DNA of 64,000 nt from Herbidospora cretacea. GTDB taxonomy: Bacteria > Actinomycetota > Actinomycetes > Streptosporangiales > Streptosporangiaceae. The notes under the pieces were generated by a model. That model was not told the origin of the DNA. It worked only from the letters and a program-made list of their open reading frames with translations, and ran no database searches. Within the stretch, counting starts at the first letter, position 1, and every line of letters starts with the position of its first letter. The stretch is from contig NZ_BBXG01000001.1 in assembly GCF_001570605.1 (NCBI RefSeq), forward strand, positions 496,001-560,000. Reading direction: 5' to 3'. Positions 21,055 through 27,535 of the stretch are shown here, in pieces. Both the position numbers and the translations under genes were made by a program.

Positions 21055-21168
21055 GAGGGGGATCATGCCACGAGGTGCGCGGGTGACCCATCGTGTGAGG
21101 CCTCCAAACGAGCGAGCGAACAGCGGCTTCCTGACTCCGCTATGACCCGACGTGAGCTTCTGACGGGA

Positions 21169-23493
21169 CTACTTAAACCACCGATCGTGCTGATACTTGG
21201 CCGCCTCAGGTCCGTCGAGTTCGTGTGTCGTGTTGTTGAGCCGCACAAGGAACACCGGTCCCTTCGCACCGCTTTTGGTCTTGTTCGTATAGACCGGACT
21301 TGAGGCTGGTGCGACGTCGATCCGGGCGACCGTGTGGTCGTCGATGGCGCCGAACGCGACGGTCGTGTTGGCCGTCACGGCCTTCCCGAAAATCTGGATG
21401 AGCAGCCCAGTCAGCCACTGCTCCCACGCGTCGGTGTTCTTCTTAGAGAAGACGGTCAGATCCTCCTCCAGGCCCAGCACCGACCCGTCGTCCTGGACGC
21501 CGACGAGCAGCGTCCCGCCGTGGCCGTTCATGAAGCCGGCGATCGTCTTGATCACCGCCCATTCCATGGCCCAGTCCTTCAGCCCGGTGTCCAGGTTCTT
21601 GCGGCCGGTCGACTTGAACTCGACGACCTTGCTCTCCCCGGCCTTGATCAGCGATTGGATACCGCGCGCCAGGGAGGCGCCGCCGAGCTGCCCGGCGAAA
21701 GGGCTGCCCTGACCTTCGCTCCGGTTCACCGGCCGACCGGTCGCGTCTTCGATCTGGCGGATCAGGCGTTCGTAACGCGCGTCGAAGACGGCCGCGAAAT
21801 CGTCTTGGCGGAGGGCGACCGGGTCGATGTCGTGGCTGGTGATGATCGCGTCGAGGTCCTGGGCGTCGACAGGTACGCCGGTCTCGATCGCGGTCAGGTA
21901 CTTGCTCGGTGCGTTCGTGCCGATGTATCCCCAGGTCTGCCCGTCGATGGCGGTCTTGTTGACGATGCAGTTGGCGTAGCCGGCGTCGATGCCGTTCGCC
22001 GTGCACCACTTCTGCGGGAAGACGTGCCGGATGTCGATCGAGTCGGCCGCATACGCCTTCGCATCGATCGTCTCGCCGGTACGGAAGTCGCGACCGCCGC
22101 GCTTCATCATGAGGGCGTAGAGACCTTTGTAGGCGGCACTGTTGCGGGTGCGCAGCCCCAGCAAACGTTCGGCCTGGAACTGCGACTCGTGAACTGTGCG
22201 CGGTTCCTCGCCGTCATCGTTGATCCAAGCGAGCACATCCTGCAGATCATAGGCAAAGCGGGTCTCGGTGCTACCTCCATAAAGCTCACCGAACACGCCA
22301 CACCAGAACCACTGACGTAGTTTCGCGCTCGGAACCGGAGTGAACGCGGCCTCGCCGAGCAAGGTGAGAATCGCCGTTAGAGGGACGAGCTGGGTGCTGT
22401 AGGGGAGATCACGCGCCCGGAAAATACGCTCCTTGTGGAAGAACCGCACGACCCCCTTCAGCGTCTCGGTGACGTCATCGGCCCAGCGGCGGTATTCGCT
22501 CAGCGGAAGCGACAACATGTCGCGGCGCTTGGCGGACACCGCAGAGCTACGGTCACGCCCCCGGGTGCGCTCCTCCCAGCGGCTACGGGTCCAGAGCAGT
22601 GTGACGATCTGCAAGAACGTCGTGGCGTCCAGGTCCACGAGCAGCGGCTCGTCCGCCCAGGTCGCCTGCCGGCGCTCCCAGTCGTCGCGCAACTTGAAGT
22701 TCTCCGCGGCATAAGTCGCCGTAAGCAGCTCGAAGACCGTCAGCTCGACGCCGCCGGTGTTCACCTTCTCGAACACCTGGCAGACGGCTTCTTTGGTCGT
22801 CTGCTGGTGAAGTGCGATCCGTGGAACGCTGTACTGCAGGAACGGCAGGATCAGCGCCTCCTGGAATCTCTGCCAGATCATCACCTGCTCCTGCGCCGGT
22901 CCTGCCATCAGATGGGCGATCTGCCAGCTGGTGGTGGCAGCAGGGTCGAGAACGATGTCGAGCGGGAAGAGGCCAGACTTACCGGCCCGCACCTGTGTCT
23001 CCGTTGTGGAGGCGTCGAGAATGACCTCACCACGAGCGTTCAACCTCCGCTTGTCCATCGGTAACGACAGGATTGCGTCATTCCGGTCCGAGTCCGGGGT
23101 GATGCACGCGTCGATGTCGGCGAAGTACCAGCGCTCGATGTCGTTCTTCCGGGTGTCCCGGGTCGGGACCGGTTTCCCCGAACGCAGCGCCAGGTAGAGC
23201 GAGGTCGTACGCTGCTGCCCGTCGAGCAGTAGGTACTTGGGCTCGCTCACCGCAAGCATTTTCGGTACACCTTCGAGCGGCCGGGGCTGAAATCGCACGT
23301 CGGCGTTTCCGGTTTCCAGCGTCATCACGGCACCGATCGGGAACGAGCGGGAAACCGACGCCAGCAAACTCACGATGTGGTCGTCGTCCCAAACCCATCC
23401 GCGCTGGAAATCGGGCAGCTGTAACACGCCCTGATGTGCTTGGCCGAGAAGGTCTGCCAGCGGAATGTCGCCACTGTCGAACGTCTTCGCCAT
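21169..23493 (-). CDS. DUF262 (GmrSD/ParB-like) - HNH - AlbA_2 (Schlafen-like) fusion, candidate phage-defence nuclease
   Basis: A 774-aa multidomain protein. Residues 10-260 are DUF262: PDFQRGWVW (27-35), DGQQRTTSL (91-99) and FEKVNTGGVELTVFELLTA (241-259), the ParB/Srx-like NTP-using domain of GmrS. A helical middle leads to an HNH-like segment: SIDIRHVFPQKW (His 490) with Asn 508 and Asn 512 in YANCIVNKTAI and a late APSKYL. Residues about 617-755 are an AlbA_2/Schlafen-type domain (ESKVVEFKS, IAGFMNGHGGTLLVGVQDDG). DUF262-HNH proteins are type IV restriction or BREX/Ssp-associated nucleases; AlbA_2 binds nucleic acid. ATG 23493 has GGAGAGG upstream. Hand-counted GC is lower than in its neighbours. 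It stands alone, with no methylase beside it. Confidence 0.85.
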   Translation of the reverse strand: MAKTFDSGDIPLADLLGQAHQGVLQLPDFQRGWVWDDDHIVSLLASVSRSFPIGAVMTLETGNADVRFQPRPLEGVPKMLAVSEPKYLLLDGQQRTTSLYLALRSGKPVPTRDTRKNDIERWYFADIDACITPDSDRNDAILSLPMDKRRLNARGEVILDASTTETQVRAGKSGLFPLDIVLDPAATTSWQIAHLMAGPAQEQVMIWQRFQEALILPFLQYSVPRIALHQQTTKEAVCQVFEKVNTGGVELTVFELLTATYAAENFKLRDDWERRQATWADEPLLVDLDATTFLQIVTLLWTRSRWEERTRGRDRSSAVSAKRRDMLSLPLSEYRRWADDVTETLKGVVRFFHKERIFRARDLPYSTQLVPLTAILTLLGEAAFTPVPSAKLRQWFWCGVFGELYGGSTETRFAYDLQDVLAWINDDGEEPRTVHESQFQAERLLGLRTRNSAAYKGLYALMMKRGGRDFRTGETIDAKAYAADSIDIRHVFPQKWCTANGIDAGYANCIVNKTAIDGQTWGYIGTNAPSKYLTAIETGVPVDAQDLDAIITSHDIDPVALRQDDFAAVFDARYERLIRQIEDATGRPVNRSEGQGSPFAGQLGGASLARGIQSLIKAGESKVVEFKSTGRKNLDTGLKDWAMEWAVIKTIAGFMNGHGGTLLVGVQDDGSVLGLEEDLTVFSKKNTDAWEQWLTGLLIQIFGKAVTANTTVAFGAIDDHTVARIDVAPASSPVYTNKTKSGAKGPVFLVRLNNTTHELDGPEAAKYQHDRWFK

Positions 23494-23653
23494 TCCGGAT
23501 CCCTCTCCATTGACGCGCCTCGCGACAGGGTAGAGGAAAGCGCCCATGTGGATGGCGCAATGAAGAATGTCCGAAGAGCCATTCCTGCATGCGGGATGCG
23601 CTTGCCAGACAGCATCTTAGACGTGGACCGGGAACACCTGCCCGCCGCGGGCG

Positions 23654-23690
23654 GTCCGGCCAGACCAGTACTTGGGCGGCCTGGCCGGAC
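23654..23690. terminator. 10-bp-stem hairpin downstream of the AAC(3)-like gene
   Basis: GTCCGGCCAG (23654-23663) and CTGGCCGGAC (23681-23690) are perfectly complementary with a 17-nt loop. It lies about 40 nt past the AAC(3) stop on the minus strand. The rest of the 237-nt gap 23494-23730 shows no convincing gene. Confidence 0.5.
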
Positions 23691-23730
23691 AGGGGGAGTA
23701 CGGCTGCGAGCAGCTCATCCGGGCCTGGAT

Positions 23731-24543
23731 TCAGAGGCCTTCCGGGCCTCCTGCGATCGCGTCGCGGCAGAGCAGGCACGCCGTGTCGGCGCAGCGGGTG
23801 ATGTCCTGGTCGGCGGTGATGGCGGCCGTCGCGGCGGCGAGGACCTGCTGGGCCGAGTAGGCGCGCCAGTGCGAGGCCGCCACCGTGGCGGGCCGGGCGA
23901 GAGGACCGAGGACCGCTTCCAGCCGGGGGAACCCTTCGGAGCAGGAACCGACCTCCACCATGCGGATCTCGCCGTTCTCGTCACGTGCCCACCTGCGGAA
24001 AAGCCGGCGGCCGGACCACTGTTCGGCCAGGTGCAGGGCCGTCATGCGGTTGAGGCCCACGCCGACGAGCAGGATCGTGCCGTCGCGGGCGGCCAGTTCC
24101 CGGATGGGGCCGTACACGTCGTCGGGGGTCTGGGCGTTCATGAGTTCGGTCGCCTGCGGGCCGACGGCGGCGAAGGAGTTGAGCGGGTGCCTGCCGCGCA
24201 CCGCGTCGGCGCGTCCGACGAGCACTGCGGGCAGGGCGCCCAGGTGAGGATTGATCAGGCCGCAGTCCACGCTGTAGGCGGTCTCCTCCGAGGCGGGGAT
24301 CGGTGGGGCGGTGTAGTCGAGGCCGTTGCGCGCCGGCCGCATGGTGGCGGGGGCGGGCAGGCTGAACTGGGGCTCGGTGAAGGCGGGCACCATCACGGTG
24401 CATCCGCGCTCCAGCAGCGCGTCCAGCAGGGTGTCGGCGCCGACGGTCGTCCCGAACGACCGCAGCGACGTGTGCAGCAGGACCGGGCGGCCCTCGAGGC
24501 GCAGGCTGTCGAGGGCGGTGCCGAGGTGTTCGGCGAGGAGCAT
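23731..24543 (-). CDS. Aminoglycoside N(3)-acetyltransferase-like protein, AAC(3) family
   Basis: A 270-aa protein of the AAC(3)/YokD family. Characteristic blocks are VLLHTSLRSFG, TVMVPAFTEPQF, PAVLVGRADAVRGRHPLNSFAAVGP, DGTILLVGVGLNRMTALHLAE, and a Cys-rich C-terminus (CADTACLLCRDAI). Known members acetylate the 3-amino group of deoxystreptamine aminoglycosides, but many chromosomal actinobacterial homologues have other substrates. ATG 24543 is chosen because GGAGG sits 5 nt upstream; ATG 24555 is less well placed. It follows the NB-ARC/TPR gene by 16 nt in the same operon, an unusual setting for a resistance gene. Confidence 0.87.
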   Translation of the reverse strand: MLLAEHLGTALDSLRLEGRPVLLHTSLRSFGTTVGADTLLDALLERGCTVMVPAFTEPQFSLPAPATMRPARNGLDYTAPPIPASEETAYSVDCGLINPHLGALPAVLVGRADAVRGRHPLNSFAAVGPQATELMNAQTPDDVYGPIRELAARDGTILLVGVGLNRMTALHLAEQWSGRRLFRRWARDENGEIRMVEVGSCSEGFPRLEAVLGPLARPATVAASHWRAYSAQQVLAAATAAITADQDITRCADTACLLCRDAIAGGPEGL

Positions 24544-24559
24544 GGGGACCTCCATGGGG

Positions 24560-26674
24560 TCAGGCGAGGTGGTCGGCGTCGGCGATGCGGCCCCGCAGGA
24601 GTTCGTTCAGCGCCTGCCGGCTCGCCTCGGTGTCGGGGTGGTCGTCGCCCAGGGTTCGGCTGCGGCGCTCGACCACCCGCCGGTAGAGGGCTTCCGCCTC
24701 GGCCCAGCGGCTTTGGCGGGCGATCGTCCAGGCGAGCTCGTGCAGGGTGAGCAGAGTCTGGGGATGGTCGGTCTCGAGCGCCCGGCGCAGGTCGAGGAGG
24801 CGGCGGTACATGGCCTCGGCCTCAGCCCATCTGCCCTGCCTGGCGGTGATCCAGGCGAGTTCGTGCTCGGTCTGCAGGGTCTGTGGGTGGTCCTCGCCGA
24901 GGACGCGCCGCCGGTCCGGCAGAACGTTCTCGAAGGCGGTGCGCGCCTCGTCGAGGCGGCCCTGCCGGGCGATCGCGTGGGCCAGCTCGTGGCGCGTGGT
25001 CAGGGTGGCCCGCGCGTCGGGGCCCAGGTGGCGCAGGCTGTCGGACAGGGTGTCCCGGTAGCGCTGTTCGGCCTCCGCCCACCTGCCCAGGCAGGTGGCG
25101 ATCCAGGCGAACTCGTGGCGGCTCTCCAGAGTGGCGGGATGGGACTCGCCGAGCACACGCAGCCGGATGCCGAACACCTCGCCGAACATCGCCTCCGCCT
25201 GGGCCGGCTTTCCTCCGTAGGCGACCGCCCAGGCGAGGTTGTGCCGGACGCTGAGCACCGCGGGATGCTCCTCGCCCAGCGCCGGACAGCGGGCCAGGGC
25301 GGCCCGGCACAGGATCTCGGTGGCCTTCCCGGCGCCGCTGCAGTTGAAGGCCCCGGCCATGTGGGCCACGGCGTCCATGAGCAGCGCGAGGTGCTCCGTG
25401 TCCACCTGTCCGGCGGCGTCGTCGAGCAGTGCCAGCAGGTGCTGGCCGAGCTGCCGGTAATGGGGCCAGCGGTCCGGCGTCCAGTGGTCCGGCTGGTCGA
25501 TGCGGAGTTCCTTGAGCGCGGCGGCGAGCCGCTCGACCGCGGTGTGCCAGACCTCCGATCCCTCGATGTGGGCGCGGTTGGTGGCGGTGACGACGGGATG
25601 GAGCGTTATCGCGGTGGAACTCCGCTCGATCAGGCCCACGTCCCTCAGCCCGTCCAGCGCCTCCGCCAGGCCGGTCGCGGGGAGGATGCGCGTCGGGATC
25701 GACGTGGACGCGTAGCAACTCGCGAGTCGCAGCAGCGTCCGGGCCTGGGGGAGGCCGTGGCGGGCCAGCCCGTCGAGGGAGATCTCCGTGGTGCGGGCCA
25801 CCATGGTCCCGGTGACGTCGTCGAGCGCGTGGGCGTACGAGGCGAAGGTCGGCCACTGCGCGGTCTCGGAGCCCAGGTAGGTCCCGGCCAGGGTGAGGGC
25901 GAGCGGCAGTCCGTCGAGCCGGCGTGCCAGGTCCTGAGCCTGGGTCTCGTCTCCCGCGTCCGGCGCGAGATCGCGCAGGACCAGGGCGGCGTCGGTCGTG
26001 CTGAGGCGGCCGACCACGAAGCACCGAGCGGCTCCCCACACACGCGGGTCGGTCTCCCTGCTGGTCACCACGACCAGACCGCGACGGGACGCGCGCGCCC
26101 AGCCCCGGCTGTCCTGCACCCCCGCGGGTGAGTCGGCCGCGGCGAGCATCCAGGGGTCGTCGGCGTTGTCGATGACGAGCAGCCACTCCTGCGGGGCGTT
26201 CTCCAGCAGGCGCCAGAGCCGGTCGGAGGCGTCGGCCGTCCCCTTGGTGATCGATTCGTGGTCGGTGTGGGATCCGCCCAGGTCACGCGCCACTTCGGCC
26301 AGGTCCGCGAAGAATCCGGCCTGGTCGGCGGCGGAGATCCACCACACCTGTCGGTCCCAGCCTCGCGCCTGCTCGGCCAGGGCCGCGGCCAGTGAGGACT
26401 TCCCGGTCCCGCCCTGTCCCATGAGAACGGCCGGGCCGTCCTCGGGCCGGCGCGCCAGGGCCACCAGCGTCTCCAGCAGGTCGCGGCGGCCGCGGAGTCC
26501 CCCCTGCGGGCCTCGCACCACGGCGGGTTCCTCCACGATGTCCACTTGCCGATCGATCCATGTCCTCAGGTCGTCCAGGCCACGTTCGGTATCGAAGGGG
26601 GCGAACTCATCGGTGGCGTGGGCCCGCCGGTAGAGTTCGGCGAGTGTGAGCGGTGTCGGCTCCTCGCGGTTCAT
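24560..26674 (-). CDS. NB-ARC/TPR STAND-type NTPase
   Basis: A 704-aa signal-transduction ATPase. After about 60 residues comes the NB-ARC domain: Walker A GQGGTGKSS (86-94), Walker B WLLVIDNADDP (about 164-174), sensor VVVTSRETDP (about 201) and GLPLAL (about 255-260). A winged-helix region follows (LLRLASCYAS, GLIERSSTAITLHPVV), then about seven kinesin-light-chain-like TPRs (GEEHPAVLSVRHNLAWAVAY, GRWAEAEQRYRDTLSDSLRH and similar) to the end. STAND proteins oligomerise on sensing a trigger; no separate effector domain is seen. Its ATG overlaps the sigma-factor stop (ATGA, 26671-26674), so the two are translationally coupled. Confidence 0.92.
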   Translation of the reverse strand: MNREEPTPLTLAELYRRAHATDEFAPFDTERGLDDLRTWIDRQVDIVEEPAVVRGPQGGLRGRRDLLETLVALARRPEDGPAVLMGQGGTGKSSLAAALAEQARGWDRQVWWISAADQAGFFADLAEVARDLGGSHTDHESITKGTADASDRLWRLLENAPQEWLLVIDNADDPWMLAAADSPAGVQDSRGWARASRRGLVVVTSRETDPRVWGAARCFVVGRLSTTDAALVLRDLAPDAGDETQAQDLARRLDGLPLALTLAGTYLGSETAQWPTFASYAHALDDVTGTMVARTTEISLDGLARHGLPQARTLLRLASCYASTSIPTRILPATGLAEALDGLRDVGLIERSSTAITLHPVVTATNRAHIEGSEVWHTAVERLAAALKELRIDQPDHWTPDRWPHYRQLGQHLLALLDDAAGQVDTEHLALLMDAVAHMAGAFNCSGAGKATEILCRAALARCPALGEEHPAVLSVRHNLAWAVAYGGKPAQAEAMFGEVFGIRLRVLGESHPATLESRHEFAWIATCLGRWAEAEQRYRDTLSDSLRHLGPDARATLTTRHELAHAIARQGRLDEARTAFENVLPDRRRVLGEDHPQTLQTEHELAWITARQGRWAEAEAMYRRLLDLRRALETDHPQTLLTLHELAWTIARQSRWAEAEALYRRVVERRSRTLGDDHPDTEASRQALNELLRGRIADADHLA

Positions 26675-27252
26675 GGAGCGGGCTCCTGTCCTTCTTCGTC
26701 GTCGTCGAGGAACGGCATCAGGTGGCCGATGTCGGCTCTCAGTTGCCTGCGCGCCTCCCGCAGGTGTCCGCGGACGGTGCTCGGGGTCACGCCGAGGTGC
26801 TCGGCGACCTGCTCGGTGGTCCACGACCTTCCCCAGACCAGGGAGGCGACCGCCTGCCGCATCGGGGGCATCGAGGCGATCACCCTCCGGCACCCGTCCA
26901 GGGCGATCGCGAGTTCGGCACGGTGGCCGACGTCGTCGTATCGGGTGTGTGGGTGGGGGACGTCGTCGGTCAGGGGCATCACGTCCGGTCTCCTCCTGAG
27001 ATCGAAGCTCTTGTTCTTGAGCACCCGGCGCAGCCACCGTCTGCGTCGGTCGGGACCGTGGAGGCCGACCACCTGCCAGGCGTGGATGGCCTCGTGAAAG
27101 GTCGTCTGCACGAGATCCCACGCCTCGGACGCCCGGCCCCCGAGGGTCCAGCAGGCGTACCTGTGCAGGTCGGCGGCCTCCTGCCGGTAGAAGTCCTCCA
27201 CCTGCTCGCGTTGCCTCTTGGTGAGTTCCGGCCGGGATGCGGAGGGCTCCAC
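26671..27252 (-). CDS. Sigma-70-family (ECF-like) RNA polymerase sigma factor
   Basis: A 193-aa sigma factor. Region 2 reads DFYRQEAADLHRYACWTLGG then ASEAWDLVQTTFHEAI and RRRWLRRVLKNKSFDLRRR; region 4 reads ALDGCRRVIASMPPMRQAVA and TTEQVAEHLGVTPSTVRGHL. GTG 27250-27252 has AAGGA 7 nt upstream. It is preceded after 1 nt by a small membrane-protein gene and overlaps the STAND NTPase gene, so sensor and sigma factor are made together. No anti-sigma domain is recognised, though the membrane protein could serve as one. Confidence 0.9.
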   Translation of the reverse strand: MEPSASRPELTKRQREQVEDFYRQEAADLHRYACWTLGGRASEAWDLVQTTFHEAIHAWQVVGLHGPDRRRRWLRRVLKNKSFDLRRRPDVMPLTDDVPHPHTRYDDVGHRAELAIALDGCRRVIASMPPMRQAVASLVWGRSWTTEQVAEHLGVTPSTVRGHLREARRQLRADIGHLMPFLDDDEEGQEPAP

Positions 27253-27253
27253 G

Positions 27254-27535
27254 TCATGTCCTTGACTGCCGGCTGTGCTGGTCGGGGTCGGTTCCCCAGA
27301 CCAGATGGACGGCAGGTTCCCGCGAGGCGTTCCGCCAGATCGTGATCAGCCCGGCGGGGGCCGTGCGGGCGAGGGCGAGGAGGGTGCGTCGCGCCTGCCA
27401 TTCGGCGAGCAGGCGCATGACGGTCCAGGCCGTCAGCGTGCCCGCGATCAGTGCGGTCGACTGCGTGGCGATGACGCCCGCAGCGAGAGCGGCCAGCGCC
27501 GCCCACGTGTCGTGCTTGGGGGAAGTCAGCAGCAT
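27254..27535 (-). CDS. Small membrane protein, first gene of the sigma/STAND operon
   Basis: A 93-aa protein with one long or two short membrane segments (TWAALAALAAGVIATQSTAL, IAGTLTAWTVMRLLAEW) and a basic then polar C-terminus (WRNASREPAVHLVWGTDPDQ). I do not recognise a family. ATG 27535 is chosen because upstream sequence in this frame is Arg/Gly-rich and unlike protein; no Shine-Dalgarno is seen. Its TGA is 1 nt from the sigma-factor GTG. It could tether or regulate the sigma factor (inference). Confidence 0.55.
   Translation of the reverse strand: MLLTSPKHDTWAALAALAAGVIATQSTALIAGTLTAWTVMRLLAEWQARRTLLALARTAPAGLITIWRNASREPAVHLVWGTDPDQHSRQSRT

Follow-up and report, generated by a model that had tools for sequence, protein, structure and literature searches.

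The 64,000-nucleotide stretch of Herbidospora cretacea considered here (assembly GCF_001570605.1, contig NZ_BBXG01000001.1, positions 496,001 to 560,000; hereafter the window) carries a gene for a single protein that joins an N-terminal DUF262 domain, an HNH-like segment and a C-terminal Schlafen-like (AlbA_2) tail, and we propose, with about as much confidence as doubt, that this is a horizontally acquired single-gene anti-phage protein in which a GmrSD-type DNA sensor is coupled to a Schlafen-like RNase effector. In such a mechanism the DUF262 domain with its DGQQR pocket would serve as a nucleoside triphosphate (NTP)-dependent switch and, together with the HNH segment, would recognize foreign (perhaps modified) DNA. 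Recognition would release or pair the AlbA_2 lobe, a putative metal-dependent RNase of the Schlafen/SAMD9 type with E620, E625 and D668 as its candidate active site, and cutting of tRNA or rRNA would then stop translation and abort the infection. Two single AlbA_2 lobes may pair in a dimer to give the two-lobed unit of the Schlafens. We infer that the protein acts in defence and as an RNase, that DNA triggers it and that a dimer switch operates, and we propose control of the tail by an NTP switch of the SspE/BrxU kind by analogy with those proteins.

The family was assembled from the best 80 of 102 relatives in a scan of GTDB species genomes (L and G numbers are our labels for loci and genomes), with broken or cut copies treated as separate pieces. 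The same architecture, which the original prediction had suggested looking for in other genomes, was indeed found colinear from end to end in 15 of these 80 (L003-L015, L017, L018), distributed over Actinomycetota, Pseudomonadota, Acidobacteriota, Gemmatimonadota, Candidatus Binatota and one unassigned bacterium; most of the other relatives are about 600 aa long and end soon after the HNH part. Nine of 82 loci (L002, L033, L056, L057, L058, L060, L075, L078, L080) gave no single open reading frame (ORF) aligned over 500 query residues and are left out of the alignment, and in the resulting tree of 73 proteins the 16 fusions (window protein included) lie on one side of a branch with a Shimodaira-Hasegawa-like approximate likelihood ratio (SH-aLRT) of 99, albeit in a quick tree with some long branches. 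The ratio of nonsynonymous to synonymous substitution rates (dN/dS) among five actinobacterial carriers is 0.143 for DUF262, 0.088 for the middle, 0.133 for HNH and 0.169 for AlbA_2. With values of 0.09-0.17 in all four regions each part is therefore under purifying selection, and since 15 relatives are also colinear end to end, the fusion does not reflect chance.

The reading of a single 774-aa chain with DUF262 at one end and AlbA_2 at the other is borne out by Pfam, which returns GmrSD_N and SLFN_AlbA_2 (the latter once only), and DGQQRTTSL at residues 91-99 as well as H490, N508 and N512 are the letters that had been reported. The HNH assignment is indirect because Pfam gives no match to an HNH or GmrSD_C (DUF1524) family at E up to 1 in this protein, and it rests on motif conservation in the relatives and on structural matches to BrxU and SspE. 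The segment as such holds up in this way, with the exception of N508, which is not conserved (N in 10 and D in 6 of the 16 fusions); D487, position 489, H490, N512 and position 521 are better kept.

An AlphaFold model (31 sequences, mean predicted local distance difference test 85.8, predicted template modelling score 0.61) of the kind that the original prediction had recommended for the three domains was compared with known structures by Foldseek. The best matches are BrxU (E 4.4e-10) and SspE (1.5e-4), followed by DIP2311 (7.4e-4). The SAMD9 DNA-binding/tRNase domain, SLFN13, SLFN5, SLFN14 and SLFN11 give matches of the size of the tail (probability 0.97-1.00, about 150-210 columns) that would appear to fall on it in the model. 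A sequence search of the PDB with the single window protein gave no match, and a profile of the family gave four only at E up to 1, namely one sequence of BrxU, two of SspE and one of a further DUF262 protein. A profile of 25 tails gave 24 matches at the same limit, mostly Schlafens, with a few that are clearly unrelated (e.g., RecA). PDB 9ylu (CbCash) is also among the tail-profile matches. Schlafen RNases use two lobes that embrace the RNA, and the Schlafen chains compared have a second, weaker match to the tail profile; the window protein has one AlbA_2 lobe. A U-pillow shape is given in a figure legend in PMC5862951 (here and below, papers given by PMC number are cited from parts of their text).

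By hand count the tail profile aligns E620/E625/D668 with E218/E223/D261 of chain 5yd0, whose spacings of 5 and 38 are those of E205/E210/D248 in SLFN13, where mutating any one of the three diminished nuclease activity (PMC5862951). The triad is complete in 16/16 fusions and in 42 of 44 tails, the exceptions being L140 (HsdR-like, one position) and L151 (kinase, two positions); the 44 comprise the 25 profile tails and 19 tails from the survey described below, in which the five seed places, L148 with its short match, L153 and L152 with its stop are not counted. The original prediction had assigned the AlbA_2 domain the role of nucleic-acid sensor only, and this is not supported, given the conservation of the residues that line up with the RNase triad of Schlafens. 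The tail is probably an effector and not a sensor, judging from these alignments.

The matching claim that the HNH segment cleaves modified DNA has become doubtful for the window lineage. In GmrD, D113 and N178 are predicted metal ligands, H114 the general base and N169 structural (PMC4619093). Positions 489 and 521 of the window protein take the places of D113 and N178, since the histidine of the HxxP motif corresponds to H490 and the invariant N512 stands nine residues before 521, as N169 does before N178; this mapping was made in the present analysis, and 489 is H, not D, in most relatives. In Eco94GmrSD, D507A, H508A and N522A have no endonuclease activity and N528A and N535A keep some (PMC4437046). 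All five letters (D487/H489/H490/N512/N521) are present in 41/42 tail-less relatives outside Corynebacteriales, in 9/16 fusions and in 0/15 Corynebacteriales. Both predicted metal-ligand positions are altered, to R489 and W521, in the window protein, L003, L004, L012 and an interrupted copy in genome G009, and the window protein has R489-H490-N512-W521 in place of the complete E/D-H-N-N site (after PMC4619093); L005 has R489 and G521, and the changes in L013 and in L017 are independent ones. The segment in the window lineage probably binds DNA but cuts it poorly or not at all, as far as the letters can be read. L118 (98-3040, minus strand, one 981-aa ORF) carries a C-terminal OLD-like TOPRIM domain on the DUF262-HNH core instead of AlbA_2.

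These observations bear directly on the model of the original prediction, a type IV restriction enzyme whose HNH cuts modified DNA and whose AlbA_2 domain only binds or senses nucleic acid. D487, H490 and N512 are kept in the window protein, all five positions are complete in those nine fusions, and one of the tail-sized matches, SAMD9, was solved with DNA (7ksp, by its title), all of which would suit such an enzyme. The alteration of both predicted metal-ligand positions in the window lineage and the triad kept in every fusion speak against it, and we regard this model as rather unlikely. An RNase effector is favored because both HNH metal-ligand positions are altered in the window lineage.

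A total of 246 genomes of the phylum of the window (Actinomycetota) were surveyed with the tail profile, which gave 27 places in 24 genomes, five of them profile seeds and several of the other 22 found earlier. According to Pfam, 10 of the 22 non-seed tails stand with type I HsdR domains, 3 with BrxL, 2 with GmrSD-like domains, 1 with AAA_12/MTES_1575 and 1 with a kinase; 3 stand with no other family and 2 (L145, L152) lie outside the Pfam scan. Restriction-type hosts (HsdR-like, BrxL, GmrSD-like, helicase-nuclease) make up 16/22, a proportion that leans toward restriction proteins because the profile was seeded with such proteins: its seeds include BrxL (L127, L128), distant DUF262-AlbA_2 proteins (L096, L126, L130), the HsdR of L011 and short proteins with a hydrophobic N-terminus (L094, L095, L129). 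Within the survey ORFs the tail occupies the C-terminal end or lies close to it. One GmrSD-like tailed protein (L142) is below the Pfam cut-off, and a distant tailed relative (L137) matches GmrSD_C. The locus L011:5148-16674 holds, all on one strand, the fusion gene together with HsdM, HsdS and an HsdR that has an AlbA_2 tail of its own. The short proteins with a similar tail are at L094:7550-8347, L095:333-1118 and L129:1216-1989, and the N-terminus of the first two reads as hydrophobic and probably spans a membrane.

In a tree of the tails those of the 16 fusions again lie on one side of a branch, weakly (75), so that the domains were probably joined on a single occasion. In the broader sense the combination does not stand alone, because similar tails cap HsdR-like, BrxL and other GmrSD-like proteins. 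It is therefore possible, though we hold it only tentatively, that one Schlafen-type RNase tail is portable and was joined on several occasions to the C-termini of unrelated restriction machines (HsdR, BrxL, GmrSD-like, helicase-nucleases) to make restrict-or-abort proteins, in which DNA recognition by the chassis would arm a tRNA- or rRNA-cutting tail; the window lineage, with a DNA-cutting site that has lost its metal ligands, would then be a DNA-triggered RNase. The same distribution could be explained by a shared docking module through which a common partner or RNA recruits HsdR-like, BrxL and GmrSD-like proteins with no catalysis of its own, and occurrence both on unrelated DNA-acting proteins and on the short proteins with a hydrophobic N-terminus is what would be seen for an adaptor. 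The carboxylates aligned with a known RNase active site are nevertheless kept in 42/44 tails and a docking surface does not obviously need them, which makes docking an unlikely explanation.

The window gene was probably acquired by transfer, as had been proposed from three hand counts of G+C (35/60, 39/60 and 47/60, all exact). Its G+C content is 63.3% compared with 71.9% for the rest of the window, of which it is the lowest 2.3-kb stretch, and none of the six other genomes of the genus (0/6) has a match to the protein at E 1e-20. DNA similarity to six carriers (L003, L004, L005, L006, L012, L116) is limited to approximately the gene, at most 21150-23592, in comparisons that spanned 15 kb for the carriers and the whole window for L116. 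Proteins of the window type are rare. At E 1e-20 matches were obtained in 17/198 relatives and 29/396 genomes of the phylum (the window genome counts in both), mostly to the core or the tail; both protein ends at high identity are found in these sets only in G009 besides the window genome. G009, of another genus in the same family, holds an 84%-identical copy that is interrupted in the assembly. This copy (L083 / L116) has a frame change and a stop and keeps the same altered HNH letters.

The two flanks of the gene match different places in the congeners, with edges near 21088 and 23731, and no clean empty site was found in the congeners examined; precise insertion could therefore not be demonstrated by empty-site comparison. 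Among plasmid and phage records none was found that covers 80% of the whole window protein, the core alone being matched by 18 plasmid and 2 phage records, and searches of viral contigs found no close relatives. A search of plasmids with the window tail gave eight records: one bears the annotation DUF262, six that of 'ATP-binding protein' (in some cases together with further names) and one has none; the DUF262 record is Sinorhizobium pSymA, where genes for type I restriction and abortive infection lie in the vicinity. Phages searched with a BrxL tail gave no match.

The gene neighborhoods of the relatives are consistent with a role in defence. Genes were called in these with a simple ORF caller, up to three neighbors per side in 15 loci, which, leaving out proteins cut by a contig end and one with a run of N, gave 79 proteins. 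PADLOC families matched at 1e-10 number 243 among these 79, compared with 4 among the 52 other window genes and 5 among 79 congener genes (79 of 92 called in seven 20-kb stretches); the figure of 243 counts families and not proteins, many of them redundant with one another for a single protein type, and the controls are not phylum-matched. Single scans of 19 chosen neighbor proteins place defence genes of BREX, type I restriction, Druantia-like, Gabija-like or comparable type nearby in 10/15 loci: PglW and PglX directly upstream of the fusion gene (L006), PglX (L012), a partial DruE-like helicase and a UvrD-like protein (L005), HsdM before and HsdS and HsdR after the fusion gene (L011), HsdM about 4.5 kb away (L007), a TIR-type Argonaute partner and HsdM (L009), NsnB/PDC-M55A (L010), TmtA-like and methylase-like proteins (L013), GajA/GajB-like proteins (L017) and a piece of HsdM (L018). 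The remaining loci (L003, L004, L008, L014, L015) fall outside these single-protein scans, and in L003 and L015 the contig breaks off roughly 1 kb from the gene. The best PADLOC match of the window protein itself is the candidate PDC-M55C, partial, at E 1.1e-22. Two further genes of related type were seen, a second AlbA_2 protein (with HATPase_c_4) directly after the fusion gene at L009:6183-7370 and a second DUF262-type protein about 6 kb from it at L018:15018-16751.

That the protein is instead a domesticated regulatory or housekeeping protein seems very improbable: a tail-less homologue in Corynebacteriales adjoins amino-acid biosynthesis genes and has an incomplete HNH, but the window family is sporadic, the window gene is low in G+C and defence genes lie near two thirds of the end-to-end relatives. 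The Corynebacteriales homologue (L063-L065, L067-L074, L076, L077, L079, L082; HNH incomplete in 15/15) adjoins genes reading like serA and leuB in 6/6 loci viewed and like ilvC in 4, and from its sequence it looks like a domesticated restriction protein. A lipoprotein-like gene lies downstream in 5/6 loci, and we dropped the idea that HNH loss in this group is due to a partner effector since this neighbor does not resemble a nuclease.

Several observations weigh against the proposal of a DNA sensor with an RNase effector. No defence gene is evident beside the window copy, so that the enrichment next to defence genes that had been anticipated is seen around the relatives and not at the window copy. 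The Foldseek E-values of the Schlafen and SAMD9 matches range from 0.0015 to 0.12, i.e., above 0.001. The E-E-D pattern is no proof of RNase function because it is kept across this one branch of AlbA_2 domains whatever is attached, the short proteins with a hydrophobic N-terminus included, and by the plasmid annotations given above the tail also occurs outside restriction proteins. As for the HNH segment, it is complete in more than half of the fusions, and its low dN/dS in the window lineage describes a region that is altered but still constrained. The weight placed on position 521 is a prediction from sequence, the equivalents of N169 and N178 having no mutation test according to PMC4619093. 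The fusions' portion of the tree (branch length 3.89) has three HNH losses and the remainder (19.52) has one, and the p of 0.016 for ≥3 of 4 in that portion, if losses were proportional to branch length, comes from four events only and a test framed after the data were seen. Lastly, the TOPRIM-tailed L118 keeps HH..N..N, which is contrary to a simple effector swap and rules out that any new tail replaces the HNH.

The coordinates of the gene and its parts are collected in Table 1. The gene is called on the minus strand from the ATG at 23493, and the open frame extends to an earlier ATG that would give an alternative product of 792 aa. Next to the gene, window positions 23731-27252 hold genes whose translations read like an aminoglycoside acetyltransferase, an NB-ARC/TPR protein and a sigma factor, and the DNA of 23731-27517 is about 80% identical in the congener G002.

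Table 1. Features of the fusion gene and its surroundings in the window (positions count from the first letter of the window).
Feature	Position	Strand	Basis
Gene for 774-aa DUF262-HNH-AlbA_2 protein	21169..23493	-	ORF call, Pfam, end-to-end relatives, dN/dS
Possible Shine-Dalgarno site GGAGAGGG	23501..23508	-	Letters read; ends 7 nt upstream of ATG at 23493
DUF262 / GmrSD_N domain, residues 12-261	22711..23460	-	Pfam E 4.8e-28; BrxU and SspE matches
DGQQR motif, residues 91-95	23209..23223	-	In 73/73 aligned proteins, window protein included
HNH core, residues 487-521 (D487, R489, H490, N512, W521)	21931..22035	-	Motif assignment after part of PMC4619093; predicted metal-ligand positions 489 and 521 altered
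SLFN_AlbA_2 domain (Schlafen-like tail), residues 620-758	21220..21636	-	Pfam E 1.9e-11; Schlafen PDB matches
E620	21634..21636	-	Aligned with residue taken as rat SLFN13 E205
E625	21619..21621	-	Aligned with residue taken as rat SLFN13 E210
D668	21490..21492	-	Aligned with residue taken as rat SLFN13 D248
Stretch without long DNA match in six congeneric genomes	21089..23730	.	Two flanks match separate places there

It is also important to consider how the protein compares with known systems. The DUF262 domain of SspE and BrxU uses NTPs, BrxU passes from dimer to monomer on NTP binding, and in SspE the recognition of modified DNA is coupled with hydrolysis of NTP and activation of the HNH (PMC10952713). 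GmrSD, BrxU and SspE share with the window protein a DUF262 domain with DGQQR and an HNH-like segment, and the last two are its best structural matches; it differs in having no GmrSD_C match, in the alteration of both predicted metal-ligand positions and in the extra AlbA_2 tail of about 170 aa. The earlier assignment to the GmrSD/BrxU/SspE kind of defence protein survives as a sporadic, probably transferred candidate; its sensor part is not supported and its DNA-cutting part is doubtful. The RNase domains of SLFN13, SLFN11, SLFN14 and SAMD9 resemble the tail in their AlbA_2 fold and, by alignment, the E-E-D positions, whereas the window protein has a single AlbA_2 lobe that is C-terminal and set on a restriction-like chassis.

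A precedent for an RNase joined to DUF262-HNH exists, and chassis and tail domain are each already known: one table line in PMC3710099 lists a HEPN RNase fused to ParB(DUF262) and HNH (example VNG7073), which like the window protein joins a predicted RNase to DUF262-HNH and differs in using HEPN, not AlbA_2. Where the consulted part of that paper brings up Schlafen domains, their fusion partner is a HEPN family and not DUF262. BrxL with a C-terminal HKD nuclease and exchangeable BrxL C-termini have also been described (PMC12839542); like the AlbA_2-tailed proteins this is a restriction ATPase with a C-terminal slot for an exchangeable effector, with the differences that the effector is a DNase and the chassis BrxL. 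Schlafen RNases beside bacteriophage exclusion (BREX) systems are described in the same source, the available text of which makes no mention of an AlbA_2-tailed BrxL, and a term search of PMC4619093 finds no mention of AlbA or Schlafen. In a literature search covering titles and abstract openings, with few subscription journals, no DUF262-AlbA_2, BrxL-AlbA_2 or HsdR-Schlafen fusion was among the matches listed. A preprint cited in PMC12839542 (bioRxiv 10.1101/2025.07.24.666596) concerns, by its title, Schlafen proteins of bacteria in defence against phages.

If the tail is an RNase, bacterial restriction and BREX proteins would share a translation-stopping antiviral module with human Schlafen and SAMD9 proteins, coupled here to a chassis that recognizes DNA. 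This would also explain how the chassis could lose its DNA-cutting residues and yet stay under purifying selection, and a test with triad mutants would then be applicable to several defence families at once.

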